Source: Geobacter sp. FeAm09 (GTDB taxonomy: Bacteria > Desulfobacterota > Desulfuromonadia > Geobacterales > Pseudopelobacteraceae). From it: a stretch of 64,000 nucleotides of DNA. The stretch is from contig NZ_CP042466.1 in assembly GCF_008330225.1 (NCBI RefSeq), positions 2,474,001-2,538,000 of the forward strand, read 5' to 3'. The number at the start of each line of letters is the position of its first letter. Position 1 is the first letter of the stretch. Positions 3,221-62,012 of this stretch are shown here, piece by piece. Position numbers and translations under genes: made by a program. The notes beneath the pieces are model-generated. The model did not search any database. It was not told the origin of the DNA and worked only from the letters and a program-made list of their open reading frames with translations.

Positions 3221-4798
3221 TCACGGCTCCCGGCAGACCCGGAAACCGATGTTGTCGTAGGCGTTGCCGGTGGCCGCGGAGCCTCTGCTCGTGACGGACA
3301 GGGCATCCTTCTGGCTGCGCCATGACCCGCCGCGCACCGTGTGGCCTGTTCCGGCGCCCGGCCCCTTGGGGTTCATTCTGGGGCTGGCGGCATAGTAGTC
3401 CTCGGCAAAGTAATCCTGCACCCATTCCGCCACGTTGCCGGACATGTCCTTGAGGCCGAAGCCGTTGGGAGCATATTTTCCCACCGGTGCGGTGCTCCAG
3501 TAACCGTCGTTCTGGGACGGGTCGTTCCATTCATAGATGCATTTCTTATCGCAGAAATTCGCGAAGCGGTAGAGGTCGGCATCCGTGCCGGTGCCGGCAT
3601 ATTTTTCCTGCTTGCCTCCGCTCCGCGCTGCGAGCTCCCATTCCGCCTCGGTGGGAAGCCGGTACTTTTTGCCGCTGCTCTGGGAAAGCCACGTTGTGAA
3701 GGCCTGGGCATCATTCCAGGAAACGCAGACCACCGGGTCCTTCTTGCTCTGATAGAAGTCGGGATTTTTCCAGGTGGCTGCCGGATTCAGGGTTTCCTTG
3801 CCGGCGGTGATGGTGTAGCACCCGCCGTTCTTCTCCGCATCGGTCACATAATTGCTGCTCTCCACAAACTGCTGGAACAGCTCACGGGTGATCTCAAGCT
3901 TGGAAATGCTGAAGGCGCTGAGGCATACCTCATGGGGGACAAGGGCTTTGCCGGAGGGATCACCCATCGTGTAGCAGGCGTCGGGGATGGAGACAAGTTG
4001 CATGTTGAAGGCAGTATCCGTAACCTCCGTAGGGACGACAACGGCGGGAGCAGGCATGGCCTTGACCGCCGGCTCGCCCGCCGCCTTGGCCGTTTGCTGG
4101 GAAGGCGCGGGAGTTTCTGCCGGGGCGACCGGAGGGACGGCCTTTTTCTGCGCGGCTTTCTCTTCGGCCGGCTTTTTCAGGGGGACCTCCTGGGCCACCT
4201 TGGCCTTGCCCTGGGACTTCCCGGCAGCGGATTTGGGCGCTGCCGGCGCCGACACCGGCTTGAGTTGTCCCTTGGCGCCGCCGAAGGGGATGGTGACGCC
4301 CAGGGTGTACTCGAAGGCACTGGCATTGGCCACGACGTGCCGCACATCCGCACGCAGCGCCAACCGATCGTACAGGAAGTATTTCACCCCGCCGCCATAG
4401 TCCATGAAGCCCATCAGCTTTCTGGAGACAAGGGTCGAGGGGCCGGACAGATTGTACCCCCCGAGTCCGGCGGCCACGAACGGCACGAGCTTCTTGTCCG
4501 GCATGAAATGGTACAAACCTTCGACGCCATATTTGAAAATGGCGACATTCTTGTCCGTCTTCAGCCTGGATGAGGTGATGGAGTAATCCAGCCCGGCTTC
4601 CACGCCGATGCGGTCCGTGAGATTGTAGCCGCCCCTGAGGGAATACATGGGGGCGGTGTCGAGATGCTGGCCCCCATCGTAGGTATAGCCGCCGATCATG
4701 GGTGAAACCGAGAACTGCCCCTCTGATACGGCCCCGAACGCCGCGCCGGAGAATGCCAGCACCAGGGATACGGCCGCACATGCACACACGCTTTTCAA
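3221..4798 (-). CDS. Beta-barrel protein fused to a formylglycine-generating-enzyme-like domain
   Basis: 525-residue exported protein in three parts. Residues 1-22 are a signal peptide ending AAFGA. About 25-175 look like a small OmpA/OprF-type beta-barrel (alternating pattern, GGYNLTDRIGVEAG, VPFVAAGLGGYNLSG, ending TLGVTIPFGG). About 176-265 are an Ala/Lys/Pro-rich linker. About 268-523 match the FGE-sulfatase/SUMF1 fold: CYTMGDPSG, ISKLEITRELFQ, RLPTEAEWELAARSGG, GNVAEWVQDY, VRGGSW and IGFRVCREP. FGE-fold proteins oxidise a Cys in sulfatases or serve as structural binding domains; no sulfatase is nearby, so enzymatic activity is not implied. The domain pairing is unusual, suggesting a surface-anchored or periplasm-facing FGE domain. 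Confidence 0.8.
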   Translation of the reverse strand: MKSVCACAAVSLVLAFSGAAFGAVSEGQFSVSPMIGGYTYDGGQHLDTAPMYSLRGGYNLTDRIGVEAGLDYSITSSRLKTDKNVAIFKYGVEGLYHFMPDKKLVPFVAAGLGGYNLSGPSTLVSRKLMGFMDYGGGVKYFLYDRLALRADVRHVVANASAFEYTLGVTIPFGGAKGQLKPVSAPAAPKSAAGKSQGKAKVAQEVPLKKPAEEKAAQKKAVPPVAPAETPAPSQQTAKAAGEPAVKAMPAPAVVVPTEVTDTAFNMQLVSIPDACYTMGDPSGKALVPHEVCLSAFSISKLEITRELFQQFVESSNYVTDAEKNGGCYTITAGKETLNPAATWKNPDFYQSKKDPVVCVSWNDAQAFTTWLSQSSGKKYRLPTEAEWELAARSGGKQEKYAGTGTDADLYRFANFCDKKCIYEWNDPSQNDGYWSTAPVGKYAPNGFGLKDMSGNVAEWVQDYFAEDYYAASPRMNPKGPGAGTGHTVRGGSWRSQKDALSVTSRGSAATGNAYDNIGFRVCREP

Positions 4799-53127: not shown

Positions 53128-53427
53128 GATCTCCTCCTTTGTATGTGGTGCCCCCCTTCAAGGGAAACGGGGGAACGGCCGTGGCGCCTTCCGGGCGATA
53201 TCAAAAACCCACAGGGCCACACAGTGCGATATGTATGCCAACAATAATTGCCGCGTATAACGGCGCCAGGCAGCGGCAAAGACCTGCGTACCGCCGACAG
53301 GTGGCGACAAATTATGTTGTATTTGGTAAAGATGTTGCATCCTAATAGGTAATATCTGGGCAAATTGTCATATTTAACAAAACATGGTATACGTATCCTG
53401 AGGGCTGCTCATGGGGGAGGAGTTATC

Positions 53428-54962
53428 GTGAACGTCAACAAGGAAGAGTTTTTTAAAGAGGTAACACTCAGAATATGCAGCAGCCTGAATATCAATACCG
53501 CCTTGGAGCGGGTGCTTGAGTACCTGCAAAAACATCTTCCGTTCACCCAGATGTTCCTTTACATCACGGAAACAAATCTCGGCGGGAGTCGCCATATTGC
53601 CCAGGCAACTGACGGTACCTGCACCGACAAGAAGTTTGTTTCGCCACCGAAAGAGCATTGGGCCTGGGCGCGGGAGCAGCAAAAGCCATTCATACTGACC
53701 CATGACGACCAGGACAAAAACATTCATGATGTCGCGCCCCTGATCGAACTGAAGGGAAATAGCATCCTCGTTGTGCCGCTCCGGATCGATGATGAGCTTA
53801 TTGGATTCCTGGTCCTCCGGGCTAAGGGAGAAAACAGGTTTACCCCCGGCCAGGCAGAATTGATGGGGGTCGTGGCCAAGCCATTTGCTATCGCGTTGGT
53901 CAACGCCAAGGCCCACGAGACGGTTGTGCAGCATCGGGACACGCTCATCGACAACAACCGTTTCCTTAACAAGGAAAGCCTCTCCCAGGCGAACGACGAT
54001 ATCATCGGCGGTAGTTCGGGACTGCGCAATGTGATGGAGATGGTCCAGATGGTGGCGCCGCTCAACACCACCGTACTGCTATTGGGTGAAACAGGGACCG
54101 GCAAGGAGGTAATCGCAAACACCATCCATCTGGCCTCCCCCCGCTCGGAGGGGCCCTTTATCAAACTCAACTGCGGCGCCATCCCGGAAAACCTCATCGA
54201 CGACGAACTGTTCGGCCATGAAAAGGGGGCGTTCACCGGCGCGGTTGCCGAAAAGCGGGGACGGTTCGAACGGGCCAGCGGCGGTACCCTTTTTCTCGAC
54301 GAAATCGGCGAGTTGCCGCTCCAGAGCCAGGTAAGGCTTCTGCGGGTCCTCCAGACCAGAAAGATCAGCCGCGTGGGGGGGAACGGCCGATTCCCATCGA
54401 CGTGCGGATAATAGCGGCCACCCATCGCGACTTGAAGGATATGATCATCCAGAAGCTATTCCGGGAAGACCTCTGGTTTCGCCTGAATGTCTTCTCCATC
54501 ATAGTGCCCCCCCTCCGGGAGCGGATAGAGGATATCCCAGCCCTGATCCGCCATTTCGTGGCCCAGAAGGGTCATGAGCTGGGAATCTCGACCCTGCCTC
54601 CCATTGTGCCGGGCGCGCTGGAGCGGCTAATGAATTACCGTTGGCCGGGTAATGTGCGTGAATTGGAAAACCTGGTGGAGAGGGAACTGATCTGGCATAG
54701 GGGTGGTCAGTTGAGATTCGATTCTATGTTGCCGGACGATGAGGGAAAAGGATGCGAAGACACTTCCGCTCAGAATGTGGGAATTGATTACCCCATAAAC
54801 CTCGACGAAGCCATGTCGCTTCATATCGGCAAGGTCCTTAAAATGGCCAAGGGCAAGATTCACGGCTCCGGGGGGGCAGCTGAATTGCTCGGCATCAACC
54901 CCAATACCCTGAGGGGGCGCATGCGAAGCCTTGGTATACTGCCTGGAAAGCAGAAATCGTAG
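53428..54962 (+). pseudogene. Sigma-54-dependent activator (GAF-AAA-HTH), frameshifted
   Basis: Enhancer-binding protein of FhlA/NorR layout. The N-terminal GAF-type sensor is about residues 1-165. The AAA+ domain has Walker [12 protein letters not shown], the sigma-54 contact motif KGAFTGA and Walker [14 protein letters not shown]. The C-terminal Fis-type HTH is AAELLGINPNTLRGRM. The frame breaks near 54387-54388: one extra C restores [17 protein letters not shown] and the reading continues from 54389 to 54962. GTG 53428 has GGAGGAG 5 nt upstream. If truly broken, the local regulon would have lost its activator; if a sequencing error, the protein is about 511 residues. Confidence 0.87.
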
Positions 54963-57414: not shown

Positions 57415-58440
57415 GGAGAGTAATCGCAAATTGGCGAAAGCATACGTCCAAGCCATCGCGGCACGTTGCCAACAAGGTAATTTTCAGTCAGTTTTCGAGC
57501 TACTAAAAGGTGTGCCCAAATGAGCTTACAAAAGATGTGTTCGGGCGGGCCTTTTCACTGTCCGCGCCCTTATCCACCGAATTTTTTCTACCCTGTAAGC
57601 TTTGAGCCTACTCGATTATTGTTGACATTACACACTTTTACGGGCTGGCAGAGGGGATTTTGGGGTTGAAGTTTTACGGAAAATCCGTATAGTGAAGATA
57701 CCTTTCGTCTGCGAAACTTTCTGGGTTCCTACCCCGCAGATTATCTCCTCACGGAGAGTCGGTTCCGGCCTTTATATGTCTCGGCATATCGCGCCAGGGA
57801 TCTCAATTCAGTTGCACTCAAGGGAGTAGTGCGTCTACAGCACCTCCAGCCCACCCAAGATTGACTTAGTTCAATCCACTTTAAAAAGCTATTGAACAAA
57901 ATATGCATTGGCACTGACCGTCGGCTATACCTACAATTTCAGCGGTCTTCGCCAATACATCAATTAATAGGGTTTCAGTTACAGCAACTTAGGGCATATT
58001 ACTCTGATTCTACTGCTGCATCTGAAATTCCTTTTCAATATTGTTCCTGTTACGTGGGAAACTGCGCGACGAAAAGGCATTCCTTTTTCGATACATTGTC
58101 GCGTATCACCACAATTTCAGGATATTGAAGTAGAGGCTAGTTCTTTTTTGAACAGCCTCAAACTGGCCTTCGCAGGTTTATCCAAACTCGACAATGTCTG
58201 GTTTTTCACCAGCTTGGTCGAGCCCGCGAAGACCAATAAAAGAATTTGGTTTTTAGAACCAAAGCGTCCGCCGGAACGGCGCAAGTTTCAAACAATTCAA
58301 AAAATCCCACCTGAAGTACCGCAGTTCCCTCAAAAATATCAATCCTGCCAAAAATGCCAAAAGTGATTTGCAGCCTTGTCACATCGGAGTTAGCCACCGA
58401 TGGAGACGAGGTGTCGTTGCGTCAATGTCCAACTGCCAAT
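57415..58440. other. Gene-poor stretch inside the island
   Basis: About 1 kb without a supported gene. Open frames at 57892-58128 and 58148-58366 (plus) lack ribosome sites and family features; the second is rich in Pro/Lys. The sequence next to 58441 may hold the 5' end of the structured RNA, including any guide-like segment. Confidence 0.5.
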
Positions 58441-59180
58441 TGGATATATAGCAGCGACGGGTGTCGCCGGATGCACGGAGACGTGCTCGTCCGGTGGCGA
58501 TGGGGGCTGTAGGGTGCAATTCCCTGCTTCTACCCACTGCATGCAGGTATCTGGGCGACGTGGAAACTGTTTTCCGGCGGCAGCCGGAAAGCATGACATG
58601 TGTGAAGTGGTGTAAATCCACTCTGCGGGACAGGGGAAACCCTATAACGCCAGACCCAGCGGGGGAGCATCACGGCAGTAATGCCGTGGTGTAAATAGCT
58701 CAACCCGTAAAGGCTCCGTCTAATGCCGACGGACCAAAGCGCCCTAAAGGGTGCAACTGGGTAAGATGTCGAGGAGCGGCAAGGCCGAGCAGCGATGAAA
58801 TTCAAGGGTATCCCAAATTCCTTCGGGAAAAGTAAGGGGGGTCTTCCAGATTCTCTCCCGCCTTAACTGGCACAACCTTGAATGGAGCGACCGGACTTCG
58901 ACATTGACACATACGTCTAACACGGAAAGGGCCGAACGGCGCAGGCAACTGTGTGCGAGGCCTGATTAGCGAGAACGAGTACCGATAACGGCCACTGCAA
59001 GGCAGTGGTGGCCGGTTAGCCGTCGGGTGGCACCGACAGAAAAGGCTGCGGGAAAATTCTCACCTTTGAAAATCGCTTTTTGGGGCTGGCTGCCCCTCTT
59101 CTGTCGACGAGCGATGTTCGTCGTCGGAAGAGGCGCAGCCAACTGGTCGGGAGACCGGTGCACTGTGCCATATTTCCACC
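58441..59180 (+). ncRNA. Large structured RNA, possibly HEARO/OMEGA-like
   Basis: Dense set of stem-loops over about 740 nt: GCACG-GAGA-CGTGC (58473-58486, GNRA loop), TTTCCGGC-GGCA-GCCGGAAA (58571-58590), AGTGG-TGTAAAT-CCACT (58606-58622), AGGG-GAAA-CCCT (58632-58643), CACGGCA-GTAA-TGCCGTG (58671-58688), a long-range CCCAG/CTGGG pair (58655/58757), GGCCACTGC/GCAGTGGTGGCC (about 58990) and a 20-bp arm at 59087-59140. The GGTGTAAATCCAC and ACGCCAGACCCAGCGGGGG strings remind me of HEARO (IscB omega RNA) elements, from memory only. It runs up to the ribosome site of the gene at 59194. Confidence 0.5.
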
Positions 59181-59193
59181 GGGAGGTTGGATT

Positions 59194-59823
59194 ATGGGAA
59201 AACACGCATGCACAACATGGCAAGGATTCTTACAACAGTTGATTACACTGATAAGTCACGGCTACCGTTATTACTGCCTGACAGAGTATCCGATCAAAAA
59301 ACAGGACAAATGGGAAACCAGTGACATGAAACTCATCAAAAAGTACGACGCCGACATCGGCAAGGACAAGCGCTATCGAAATCAACAGAAAGGCAGGGCA
59401 AATTATACGTTTTTGAGGTGGGGAAAAATTGCTCTGATCCTGCGGTCCGCAGGAGAGTATGAGGAAGCAGGCGACCGTTTTGTTGATATCCGTGAAAAGG
59501 ATCTTGTCCTTGAAGTTGGCGACACCATGCGAATCAGAATAGTGCATGAAGGATCTAAAGGGAGAGTCACGGCATATCTTGAGAAACAGGTATACCGGGA
59601 CATTAAGGCTGAACTCCTCGATCACTGCCGACACAGGCGATTAGATGTCTTGAAGGGCAGATTTGCCGCACTTAACGGCCTACCTGGTTACTCCGGCATC
59701 ACCCAGCAAAAGGCCGGGCTCGTGACAGATATTATCCGGGAGGGGAAGAAGCACGGGGTAACCTTGCAACGGAAGGATTTTCCGATCCGCACCAGCAGGA
59801 AAATCTACAAAGTTTTCGACTAA
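59194..59823 (+). CDS. Unknown protein downstream of the structured RNA
   Basis: 209-residue basic protein with no family I can name. Seen: an aromatic N-terminal region (ISHGYRYYCLTEYPIKKQDKW), KYDADIGKDKRYRNQQKGRANYTFLRWGK in pieces, a central acidic DIREKDLVLEVGDTMRI and a Lys/Arg-rich end (IRTSRKIYKVFD). It has none of the RuvC or HNH motifs of IscB, and no YxDD, GIY-YIG or LAGLIDADG motif. GGGAGG lies 7 nt before ATG 59194. Tight coupling to the RNA (13 nt) suggests that they form one element, possibly RNA-binding. A terminator follows. Confidence 0.6.
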   Translation: MGKHACTTWQGFLQQLITLISHGYRYYCLTEYPIKKQDKWETSDMKLIKKYDADIGKDKRYRNQQKGRANYTFLRWGKIALILRSAGEYEEAGDRFVDIREKDLVLEVGDTMRIRIVHEGSKGRVTAYLEKQVYRDIKAELLDHCRHRRLDVLKGRFAALNGLPGYSGITQQKAGLVTDIIREGKKHGVTLQRKDFPIRTSRKIYKVFD

Positions 59824-59901: not shown

Positions 59902-59951
59902 AAAAAAAGCCCCCTCTGTCCCGCCATATTGGCGGATAGAGGGGGCTTTTT
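59902..59951. terminator. Bidirectional rho-independent terminator
   Basis: GCCCCCTCT/AGAGGGGGC with inner CCGCC-ATATT-GGCGG, flanked by A7 on the left and T5 on the right. It ends the RNA-protein unit. Confidence 0.85.
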
Positions 59952-60044: not shown

Positions 60045-60338
60045 TTGAAAAATGGCCTGGCCGAAAAACCGAATAGAGCGAATGATCCAGAAATGCTCGA
60101 CCTGACCGCTTTTGCAAAAAAGATGATGGTGAGCACTAACACCATCCGCAATTGGATCAAATTGGGAAAATTGATCGAAGGTCAGCACTATATCCATGTT
60201 GGCCGTGTTTATCGCTTCCCCTGGAGTCATGACTGTTTGGCGCATTTGATGCGGTCTTTAGCCCCTGAGCCTGTGGCGACACGGCCAAGGATGGTCACAA
60301 GGCGGCAAAACCATACGCAGTTGGTTTTTCGAGCTTGA
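60045..60338 (+). CDS. Excisionase-like HTH protein
   Basis: 97-residue protein with a MerR/Xis-type winged helix: FAKKMMVSTNTIRNWIKLGKLIEGQHYIHVGRVYRF in pieces, the length and layout typical of excisionases and phage DNA-binding proteins. The start is uncertain: TTG 60045 or ATG 60093. It lies 84 bp before the integrase gene, so it likely directs excision of the island or controls the integrase. Confidence 0.7.
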   Translation: MKNGLAEKPNRANDPEMLDLTAFAKKMMVSTNTIRNWIKLGKLIEGQHYIHVGRVYRFPWSHDCLAHLMRSLAPEPVATRPRMVTRRQNHTQLVFRA

Positions 60339-60422
60339 TGATTACCACATCTGTGAGTATCCTGATAAGGCAAACGAAAATCAGCCGAGAGGGGGTACCT
60401 AACATGAAGAAAGGACCATAGT

Positions 60423-61925
60423 ATGAAGAAAGCGATTCATGAATCATCTGATTACAAACAGAGAAAACCGAGGTACGGCAGCCTGTATCGCACGAATGGT
60501 TCGAAGTATCTGTACATTTCGATGAATTACTTCAAACAGCGGCTGCGCTTTCCGACCGATCGCGAAGACACTCCAGAAAACTGGGATTTCTTCTGCGATT
60601 TCCTTGATGAAGTGGGGATGAAGATTAGAAATCAGACGTTCCGTTTTGCCCGGACGTTCTACTGGTTGGATGAAGAGACAAAAGCCCATTTCTCGGCGCT
60701 TGAGGGCAACGACTACAAACCAGAACCGGAACATGTCCAGTTCGGCGAATATGCCACCGAATGGATGAGGCGGAGAATCCCAACGTTTAGCTCAATATCC
60801 AAAAAGCGGGACTACACGGAAGCCCTGGGAAAACGGATTCTGCCCTATTTTGCGCAGATGGCGTTCTCCAGTATCACGACATCTGTTGTCGAGACGTTCA
60901 TTGACAATCTGGAGCGCTGCAAGGGGCCGCAGGAGAAAGCCCTTTCAAAAAAACGGGTCAAGAATATCATCGGCCCCATGAGCAAGGTTTGGGAATCGGC
61001 CTGTAACGACAACAACTGGAACCTCCGAAATCCCTTCGACGGTTTATCCCAAAAATTTGCTGGGATTCAGGACAGTGCCGATCAGGAGAAGGAGCGGCGG
61101 GCGGCATTGATGGAGGAGGATGAGGATTGCCACTCTACCCGTGATGTGTTTCTCCTGTCGGAATGGCAGCGGCTCTTGTCCTTTGTTGATCCTCATTACC
61201 ATCCGGTCATGGAACTGTTGCTGATGGGACTGATCGGCAGCGAACTGGAGGGGCTGCTGAAGCGCCACCTCAAAGATGACTGCCTCCAGATCAGGTGCGC
61301 GGTGATAAGGGAAGATAAGAATACAATGCATCTGAAATTCAAGCCGAAAAACTGGTACCGGAAGAGGGACCTGCCATTGACCGCCAAGCTGAAAACCCTG
61401 CTGGAACAGGCGGCGGCTGCGTCGACCAGCGCCGGAATCATCCGGTTCGAGAGCGGCATCGAGCTGCCTGCCAGCGCCTTTCTGCTGACCATGAAAGACG
61501 GCGCCTTCTTCAACTATCGGTCGTTTTGCAAGACCATCTGGAACCCGGCCATGAAACAGGCGGGGCTTGAGCGCAGGATACCGTATGCGTCCCGTCACAC
61601 CATGGTGCAGTGGTCGTCGCTGGTCGGGGTGAACAAGGAACGGCTGGTGGACTTGGTGGGGCACTCGACCAAAACGATGATCGACGAGGTCTACGGCAAG
61701 TACCGCAACGGGTTAGTGGAGGAGAAGAGCCTGATTCTTGATTATCTCGGAGAGGATTTCCTAGCCTTGGAGGAGTTACGGACGGCGTTTCCGGAGCGGT
61801 ACCGACAAAAGATGGCTTTGCCGCTCATAGCGTCTCAGATAGCGGAAGCCCCTGCTATGGCCGTCGCTTTTGGTCAAAGTTTTGGTCAAAGTCAGGGGCT
61901 TTATCCTGATAACTACTTGAGGTAG
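60423..61925 (+). CDS. Tyrosine-type site-specific integrase
   Basis: 500-residue phage-type integrase. The N-terminal about 110 residues bind arm sites (DUF3596-like start KPRYGSLYRTNGSKYLYISMN in pieces), then a core-binding domain and a catalytic domain. Box II has YASRHTMVQW (Arg and His), LVGHSTKTMIDEVYGKY has His and the nucleophile Tyr. The box I Arg, normally in a GLRxSEL-like motif, is Ile here (MGLIGSELEGLLKRH). If no nearby Arg substitutes, recombination may be impaired. The gene ends 16 bp before tRNA-Gly, the presumed target. Confidence 0.87.
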   Translation: MKKAIHESSDYKQRKPRYGSLYRTNGSKYLYISMNYFKQRLRFPTDREDTPENWDFFCDFLDEVGMKIRNQTFRFARTFYWLDEETKAHFSALEGNDYKPEPEHVQFGEYATEWMRRRIPTFSSISKKRDYTEALGKRILPYFAQMAFSSITTSVVETFIDNLERCKGPQEKALSKKRVKNIIGPMSKVWESACNDNNWNLRNPFDGLSQKFAGIQDSADQEKERRAALMEEDEDCHSTRDVFLLSEWQRLLSFVDPHYHPVMELLLMGLIGSELEGLLKRHLKDDCLQIRCAVIREDKNTMHLKFKPKNWYRKRDLPLTAKLKTLLEQAAAASTSAGIIRFESGIELPASAFLLTMKDGAFFNYRSFCKTIWNPAMKQAGLERRIPYASRHTMVQWSSLVGVNKERLVDLVGHSTKTMIDEVYGKYRNGLVEEKSLILDYLGEDFLALEELRTAFPERYRQKMALPLIASQIAEAPAMAVAFGQSFGQSQGLYPDNYLR

Positions 61926-61940
61926 TTAGCTATCTTATGG

Positions 61941-62012
<72 letters not shown>

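Follow-up and report, generated by a model that had tools for sequence, protein, structure and literature searches.

A circularly permuted group II ribozyme and its AcpG partner in Geobacter sp. FeAm09: a proposed rotated group II element with a non-polymerising maturase

Introduction

Circularly permuted (CP) group II ribozymes are large ribozymes with no known function (Roth et al. 2021, PMC8637638). The same source describes CP group II RNAs with a protein partner, AcpG, which was named for this association and for which no homology to any protein class was found. It also states that many CP RNAs have no AcpG detected nearby. Branching and circle formation are reported there for other CP members; the linker released as a circle ranges from 15 to 86 nucleotides (nt), with a predicted length of 32 nt for Polaromonas naphthalenivorans (pPNAP05), whose strain CJ2 was used and whose plasmid CP RNA was studied in that work. 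Here we analyse a pair of this kind in a 64,000-nt stretch of Geobacter sp. FeAm09 (NZ_CP042466.1, positions 2,474,001 to 2,538,000 of the forward strand; hereafter the window, whose own numbering is used throughout).

The window RNA shares with CP group II ribozymes (T-large RNA; Roth et al. 2021, PMC8637638) the domain (D) order D5-D6-linker-D1-D2-D3-D4, hairpins P1 and P2, the GGGCG and NU splice sites, and the pairings between exon-binding site 1 and intron-binding site 1 (EBS1-IBS1) and between delta and delta'. It adds a member to this known ribozyme class, and the protein encoded just downstream adds one to the AcpG family, likewise known. A first-pass annotation of this DNA had suggested a new kind of RNA-protein element; the 2021 description had already covered such a pair. 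The new element here is a proposal, drawn from two structure models and from profile alignments, that AcpG descends from a reverse transcriptase (RT). Our reading, to which we give a probability of about 0.8, is that this CP group II ribozyme and AcpG form a rotated group II element whose protein has shrunk to a non-polymerising maturase.

Results and Discussion

A structured RNA with permuted group II domains

Region 58441-59193 is a genuinely structured RNA. Its folding energy is -333 kcal/mol, compared to -279.6 (standard deviation 7.7) in 20 dinucleotide shuffles (z -7.0). The adjoining open reading frame (ORF) of 209 amino acids (aa), 59194-59823, was searched against Pfam, NCBIfam and PHROGs without a match at E up to 1. 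The first-pass annotation was right in describing a large structured RNA beside an unrecognised protein. It placed the start of the RNA too far downstream, since the 5′ part, hairpins P1 and P2, lies at 58382-58458; the 3′-most conserved hairpin ends at 59158.

At gathering thresholds, the Rfam scan of the whole window returned tRNA only. With E up to 10, 11 matches were obtained, the best of which was the group II intron D5-D6 (Intron_gpII, 58462-58538, 39.9 bits, E 6.2e-6), compared to a gathering score of 40. HEARO was not among the 11. A HEARO/IscB-like omega RNA or another RNA-guided system had been evoked from the look of some strings, and this impression is all that speaks for it; as group II landmarks account for the RNA and the protein is without any family match, we regard such a system as extremely improbable. 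A gathering-score scan of five relatives (L006, L018, L025, L010 and L015) also gave no match, so the class would be missed by Rfam alone.

Homologous RNAs adjoin homologous proteins in three genomes, G019 and G051 (same order) and G229 (same class), as well as on a Planococcus plasmid. A DNA search pattern made of D6, linker and GGGCG was taken from the RNAs of these acpG-adjoining loci, and it retrieved 23 loci from genome contigs. We then used a covariance model, R1, of D5-D6-linker-5′ splice site, built from 15 loci and leaving out the window, its two closest relatives (G019 and G051), pPNAP05, pTT8 and an E. coli plasmid. In a search of 17 sources, R1 found the window RNA with 87.3 bits (E 1.3e-20) and the CP RNA of pPNAP05 with E 1e-17. 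The E. coli plasmid (E 2.4e-16) and a Planctomycetes plasmid (E 3.5e-11) were matched as well, pTT8 weakly (E 0.0056). Within its own genome, the window RNA was the sole match at E up to 1 among the 150 of 1055 first-look candidates that were scored. Of the 23 pattern loci, 13 had been used for R1, L024 was represented there by L039 from the same contig, and nine were tested. Seven of these nine matched at E 1.1e-7 or better, and the other two, L029 and L035 (E 0.3 and no match, respectively), were judged to be chance hits. The resulting set of 21 CP RNA loci is a non-random sample of the class, as the pattern came from acpG-neighbouring RNAs.

An alignment of 16 sequences was used to examine base pairing. 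Standard pairs occupy 90.1% of the 1650 base-pair cells. Sliding the partners by 1-3 columns gives 37-42%, and 200 shuffles do not exceed 67.8%; since the consensus structure comes from this very alignment, the comparison is biased in its favour. For 89 of the 107 predicted pairs, the pair is kept with both sides changed. The D5 catalytic triad is CGC in 10 of the 16 sequences and AGC in six, the 2-nt D5 bulge is present, and all 16 carry an unpaired branch A in D6. Rfam, R1 and the alignment all place D5 and D6 at the 5′ end, ahead of D1-D4. At the level of sequence and covariation, these data establish both the assignment of the RNA to the CP group II class and, together with the profile searches described below, the AcpG homology of its partner. 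The alignment includes a Nitrospirae RNA (L017, positions 15-924 on the minus strand) which scores 89.1 bits in D5-D6, fits poorly past the start of D1 and comes from a genome without detected AcpG; it is possibly a decayed copy.

The Intron_gpII match in D5-D6 is also what an ordinary group II intron, or its decayed remains with the RT elsewhere, would give. A canonical intron differs from the window RNA, which has no D5-D6 at its 3′ end and no active RT-type intron-encoded protein (IEP). The position of D5-D6 5′ of D1, the reversed splice sites and the strong covariation in the same permuted order across 16 sequences all oppose this explanation, as does the genome itself, which yielded neither RVT_1 (E up to 0.001) nor GIIM matches (E up to 1e-10). 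It is very improbable, and the distinction from a standard intron with its RT elsewhere that the first-pass annotation had drawn holds.

Reversed splice sites, linker and exon-binding pairings

The 14-nt linker (58539-58552) lies between reversed splice sites, NU then GGGCG. Applied to different loci, the rule CCCANU...GGGCG gives linkers of 32 nt for pPNAP05, 14 nt for the window and 12 nt for L005; the latter two fall just under the published range. A 5′ splice site GUGUG at ~58600 was considered and rejected because GGGCG at 58553 is conserved and reproduces the 32-nt circle of pPNAP05.

EBS1 (58848-58853) can pair with IBS1 (58547-58552), and delta (58847) with delta' (58539). Over the 16 sequences, 81.3% of the 112 cells of these two pairings are paired, compared to 69.6% in shuffles and 31-54% when the partner is slid, with columns that were chosen by eye on the same alignment. 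The covariation score is 0.382 versus 0.169, and none of 500 shuffles reached either the observed paired percentage or the observed score. Two weaker measures, the count of pairs in which both sides change and that of pair types, were reached by 16 and 27 of the 500 shuffles, respectively. The delta-delta' counts support the 58538/58539 boundary. An alternative EBS1, AGAUGU (within GGTAAGATGTCGAGG), was rejected since it lies inside a covarying stem; the loop at 58848-58853 fits.

One further long-range contact is predicted, and another is possible. RNAalifold pairs the P1 loop (58392-58395) with 59029-59032 (columns 26-29 with 918-921, with compensatory changes), and three of the four pairs form in the window sequence. 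By inspection, the P2 loop CUGCC (58433-58437), which is poorly aligned, could pair with GGCAG (59001-59005) in D2; a P2-D2 loop-loop pseudoknot is a feature of the CP class. The D2-D3 region contains hairpins at 58988-59017, with loop GCAAGGCAG, and at 59019-59039. The complete order of elements is P1-P2-D5-D6-linker-D1-D2-D3-D4-acpG-terminator.

The downstream protein belongs to the AcpG family

A profile of 11 family sequences (A3), without TTHC007, the AcpG of Thermus pTT8, matched 18 of the 1159 ORFs of the fetched loci. TTHC007 was among them (whole-sequence E 1.7e-5, best single stretch 9.4e-5). Because TTHC007 was found by this profile, the 209-aa protein is, on profile similarity, an AcpG; the pairwise BLAST match between the two is weak (E 0.013). 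Both are neighbours of a CP RNA, and the window protein is the shorter, TTHC007 having about 260 residues. Isoelectric points are basic in all 23 AcpGs (9.5-10.7).

An acpG gene lies within 5 kb of 18 of the 21 CP RNA loci. It is directly downstream on the same strand in 11, divergent in one, convergent in five (4.1-4.5 kb from GGGCG) and upstream on the same strand in one. At one further CP RNA locus, AcpG is on another contig of the genome. The RNA-protein co-occurrence that the first-pass annotation had raised is borne out, the pair recurring across phyla. In the window, acpG follows the RNA on the same strand, which sets it apart from the described CP group II ribozymes, and its start codon is 641 nt from GGGCG.

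Several other arrangements were observed. In pPNAP05 (L010/L086), the AcpG homolog (58116-58685, minus strand, E 4.1e-26) is divergent from the RNA and close to it across the record start. Nine records of E. coli plasmids of ~29-35 kb carry an AcpG homolog; in one of the E. coli plasmids (L008, CP088440.1) a CP group II RNA (3566-3683, minus strand) is divergent from the AcpG homolog (3977-4660, plus strand). Paraburkholderia bryophila and P. translucens (L015, L022; L016, L028; with L087, L091) have two CP RNAs each, with acpG 4.1-4.5 kb from every one.

Searched alone against genome contigs, the window protein found no relative, and none was found in phage records or viral contigs. A second profile, A2, matched only the own genome among 395 genomes of the phylum, and single-protein searches matched three of 57 relatives and four of 244 genomes of the class, the own genome counted. 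These few matches across class and phylum indicate that the RNA-protein pair is rare, and the lack of a match in the five other searched genomes of the genus indicates that the protein is accessory. Pfam, NCBIfam and PHROGs showed no family common to more than one of 11 AcpGs, and a sequence search of solved structures gave two matches (E 1.1-1.4), to a mitochondrial ribosomal protein. In a literature largely without subscription papers and bioRxiv, Roth et al. 2021 was by title the only paper concerned with AcpG and the only one in which TTHC007 occurred; no title dealt with the ancestry of AcpG.

AcpG is predicted to resemble a reduced, polymerase-dead group II intron RT

The domain names used in this section (fingers, palm, thumb/domain X, DNA-binding and endonuclease) and the role of the YADD motif are those familiar from group II IEPs and their RT family.

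The AlphaFold2 model of the window AcpG, computed with 11 sequences, has a predicted local distance difference test (pLDDT) value of 89.9 and a predicted template modelling score of 0.80. When it was compared to PDB with Foldseek, ranks 1-3 of 287 went to two proteins of group II intron ribonucleoproteins (RNPs) and to G2L4, a group II-like RT (E 0.012, 0.013 and 0.093; probability 0.99, 1.00 and 0.51). VIA-align superposed it on 8h2h_D over 183 residues, palm plus thumb, with Z 10.0 and a root-mean-square deviation of 3.4. Eight further group II RT entries gave Z 8.8-9.7, with G2L4, DRT9, spliceosome/Prp8 and retron entries lower. Among the best 50 rows, only RT, retron, spliceosome/Prp8 and NS5B polymerase entries align over at least 150 residues. 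A search of a viral structure library gave a best E of 7.6e-3 (TM 0.13).

A second AcpG (L021), 23% identical, was modelled with pLDDT 76.2. Foldseek again placed 8t2r_D first (E 0.074), and in the best 50 VIA rows the entries aligned over at least 160 residues are group II or group II-like RTs only (Z 7.7-8.8).

Comparison of hidden Markov models (HMM-HMM, hhalign), which uses no structure, gave one local match between the AcpG profile and a profile of 16 IEPs (score 29.8, P 0.0043, probability 8%). Scores stayed at or below 18.9 across 100 column-shuffled decoys, and the reversed profile reached 16.4. With 34 IEPs the score was 28.6 (probability 6.5%), versus at most 22.5 in 50 decoys. The best single IEP, L055, scored 33.4 (P 4.5e-4), and 38.7 (P 8.5e-5, probability 60%) when 29 AcpGs were used. 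The printed alignments follow one register, in which FLRW-GKI-ALIL of AcpG (73-83) lies on the strand-turn-strand VRY-ADD-ILIL of the IEPs and AcpG from ~130 on lies on their domain X part. In the window model, strands 71-76 and 79-85 flank a turn, G77-K78, at the YADD position. No DD is present at the aligned hairpin in any of the 29 AcpGs; two of 23 have an xDD motif elsewhere in the sequence.

From predicted models and sequence profiles, we strongly infer that AcpG is homologous to group II IEPs, with RT ancestry. The predicted fold, a palm with a YADD-type hairpin followed by thumb/domain X, would be shared with the IEPs (chains of 8h2h, 8t2s, 6me0 and 6ar3), and in the window layout the ORF comes after D4 as theirs does. 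AcpG differs in its size (~205 residues versus 387-599 in the matched chains), in the missing DD and in being without the N-terminal fingers and the C-terminal DNA-binding and endonuclease domains. The first-pass annotation had seen no RT motif in the protein; this holds for its letters, but in its predicted fold the protein is the palm and thumb of a group II RT in which YADD has been replaced.

A partial likeness is seen to Prp8 and other polymerase-dead RT-fold splicing proteins, with VIA rows for 4i43_B (Z 7.5) and 5lj3_A (Z 7.8, 197 residues), the latter a spliceosome chain which we take to be Prp8. By analogy, AcpG might likewise work as a scaffold. The matched chains are spliceosomal and have 1,407-2,168 residues, and we claim no membership of this group for AcpG.

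A proposed rotation of a whole retroelement

We also favour, with somewhat less confidence, a broader view in which CP group II loci are whole retroelements that were rotated as a unit, protein gene included, and now act as non-mobile RNPs making circles down to 12-14 nt and branched RNA, in parallel to the dead RT fold of Prp8. The gene order D5-D6/D1-D4/ORF would be that of an ORF-bearing group II intron after rotation, with D5-D6 leading and the ORF still after D4, which suggests that the protein was carried along. Such a rotation could have arisen from two tandem introns minus their outer parts.

By the chemistry known from other CP members, the 2′-OH of branch A58532 in D6 would attack before G58553 to form a 2′-5′ branch, and the freed linker end would then attack after 58538. 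The expected products are a 14-nt RNA circle and a branched D5-D6/D1-D4 RNA. AcpG, as a putative palm plus thumb/domain X without fingers, DNA-binding and endonuclease domains or the catalytic DD, would bind and stabilise the folded ribozyme; this reduced constitution argues for a maturase role rather than for RNA copying.

Some intron proteins bind D4 and thereby regulate their own translation. The position of acpG behind an extended Shine-Dalgarno stretch, at the distance from GGGCG given above, makes a comparable feedback of AcpG on its translation conceivable. Of the 12 loci compared, 10 have CYGGRAGGU ahead of the start codon, L034 and L021 deviating. This stretch (59179-59190) is conserved more than ribosome binding requires and is possibly a regulatory element.

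AcpG could be RT-derived and yet act outside splicing, regulating either its own RNA or the element in its replication, partition or excision, with the CP RNA as its ligand. Its homologs are found on several plasmids, here it sits beside excisionase-like and integrase-like ORFs, and the ribosome site is close behind the RNA in the window and in relatives of the same layout. Expression without splicing was moreover seen in cells (Roth et al. 2021, PMC8637638). Against such a role, the aligned sequences preserve the D5 triad, the branch A and the two splice-site pairings, so that catalysis itself seems selected; we find a purely regulatory AcpG doubtful.

A different doubt concerns the ancestry of AcpG. 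It could be a separate alpha/beta plus helical-bundle protein binding RNA or DNA, alike to palm and thumb by convergence, while the RNA would still be a CP group II ribozyme. A number of observations weigh against RT descent or against rotation as a unit. The Foldseek E-values are weak, at 0.012-0.093 for the window protein and 0.074 for L021, none being below 0.001. The VIA Z-scores of 8-10 are little above the 7-8 typical, according to the tool, of unmatched models; helix-only designed proteins reach Z 9.1 over ~80 residues with the window AcpG, and for L021 two helix-only entries aligned over 90-92 residues, 8ppl_Iu (Z 11.8) and 4ll6 (Z 9.2), outrank all RTs. The hhalign probabilities are low (8% and 6.5% with IEP profiles, 33-60% with the best single IEP). 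Adding six more divergent AcpGs lowers the score from 29.8 to 28.2 with 16 IEPs, and from 28.6 to 23.2 with 34 IEPs (probability 1.4%, P 0.038), where the decoy maximum of 22.5 comes from the smaller AcpG set. Among 133 ranked single proteins, IEPs occupy ranks 1, 3, 5, 6, 9 and 13, the remaining IEPs spread down to 66, and rank 2 is an unrelated ORF; lower-ranked IEPs include matches outside the hairpin/domain X register. None of 11 AcpGs had an RT or GIIM match in Pfam, NCBIfam or PHROG at E up to 0.1, and the hairpin columns are poorly aligned in divergent AcpGs. On the side of gene order, the rotated arrangement is not universal: Paraburkholderia, Abyssibacter, pPNAP05, the E. coli plasmid and Thermus carry acpG elsewhere than immediately after the RNA. 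Two of the 21 CP RNA loci (L013 and L017) have no detected AcpG. A first, narrower AcpG profile had missed the Paraburkholderia genes, which indicates that absent AcpGs can be undetected homologs.

Convergence is nonetheless improbable in our view. Group II RTs are the main class matched at full length by both modelled AcpGs, which share 23% identity; the structure-free alignment keeps a single register across the YADD hairpin and domain X; and the RNA alongside belongs to the group II ribozymes. Should AcpG indeed be a miniature intron RT that has lost its activity, its role as a maturase becomes open to testing. The permutation would then concern the whole retroelement and not just its RNA, and AcpG would offer a compact bacterial case of an RT fold retained for RNA splicing without polymerase activity.

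Feature coordinates and genome setting

Table 1. Features of the CP group II ribozyme-acpG locus, in window coordinates
Feature	Coordinates	Strand	Basis or remarks
P1 hairpin of the CP group II RNA	58382..58402	+	RNAalifold, alignment of 16 sequences
P2 hairpin	58413..58458	+	stem columns 50-58 x 89-98 covary
Domain 5 (catalytic)	58463..58500	+	CGC triad 58465-58467, GAGA-type loop, 2-nt bulge; Rfam and R1 model
Domain 6	58501..58538	+	bulged branch-point A at 58532; 3′ splice site after 58538
Linker between reversed splice sites, predicted RNA circle	58539..58552	+	14 nt; IBS1 58547-58552, delta' 58539
5′ splice site GGGCG and domain 1 (end approximate)	58553..58980	+	EBS1 58848-58853, delta 58847; conservation, alignment fold
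Domains 2 and 3 (approximate)	58981..59060	+	inferred, assigned by position
Domain 4 hairpin (59084-59140) and conserved 3′ hairpin (59143-59158)	59084..59158	+	window fold; 3′ hairpin covaries, columns 1094-1105
Extended Shine-Dalgarno stretch CCGGGAGGUUGG before acpG	59179..59190	+	sequence conservation
acpG-family gene, 209 aa	59194..59823	+	AcpG profiles, AlphaFold2, fold searches, profile alignment to IEPs
Long GC-rich hairpin with T-run on both strands	59903..59951	.	sequence; self-match on opposite strand

The hairpin at 59903-59951 is probably a bidirectional terminator ending the RNA-acpG unit. It was not among the results of the terminator scan, which was restricted to loops of 3-8, and the second DNA match in the own genome is this hairpin against itself on the other strand. 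The promoter scan gave one site, on the minus strand, versus 1.3 expected.

Beyond the terminator, an excisionase-like ORF (60045), an integrase-like ORF (60423) and tRNA-Gly(CCC) follow in a row (60045-62012). The Pfam matches of the integrase-like ORF are the arm-binding and SAM-like N-terminal domains, at or just above the cut-off; the catalytic domain is not among them. This region probably marks one end of an integrative element, and the opposite end was not located. The integrative island of the first-pass annotation remains plausible from these adjoining genes, and lacks a counterpart in repeats, none of at least 14 nt being shared with the tRNA-Gly region within the window. Elsewhere in the window (53365-54962), a sigma-54 activator-like protein is, by inspection, seemingly split into two overlapping ORFs, 53365-54411 and 54402-54962.

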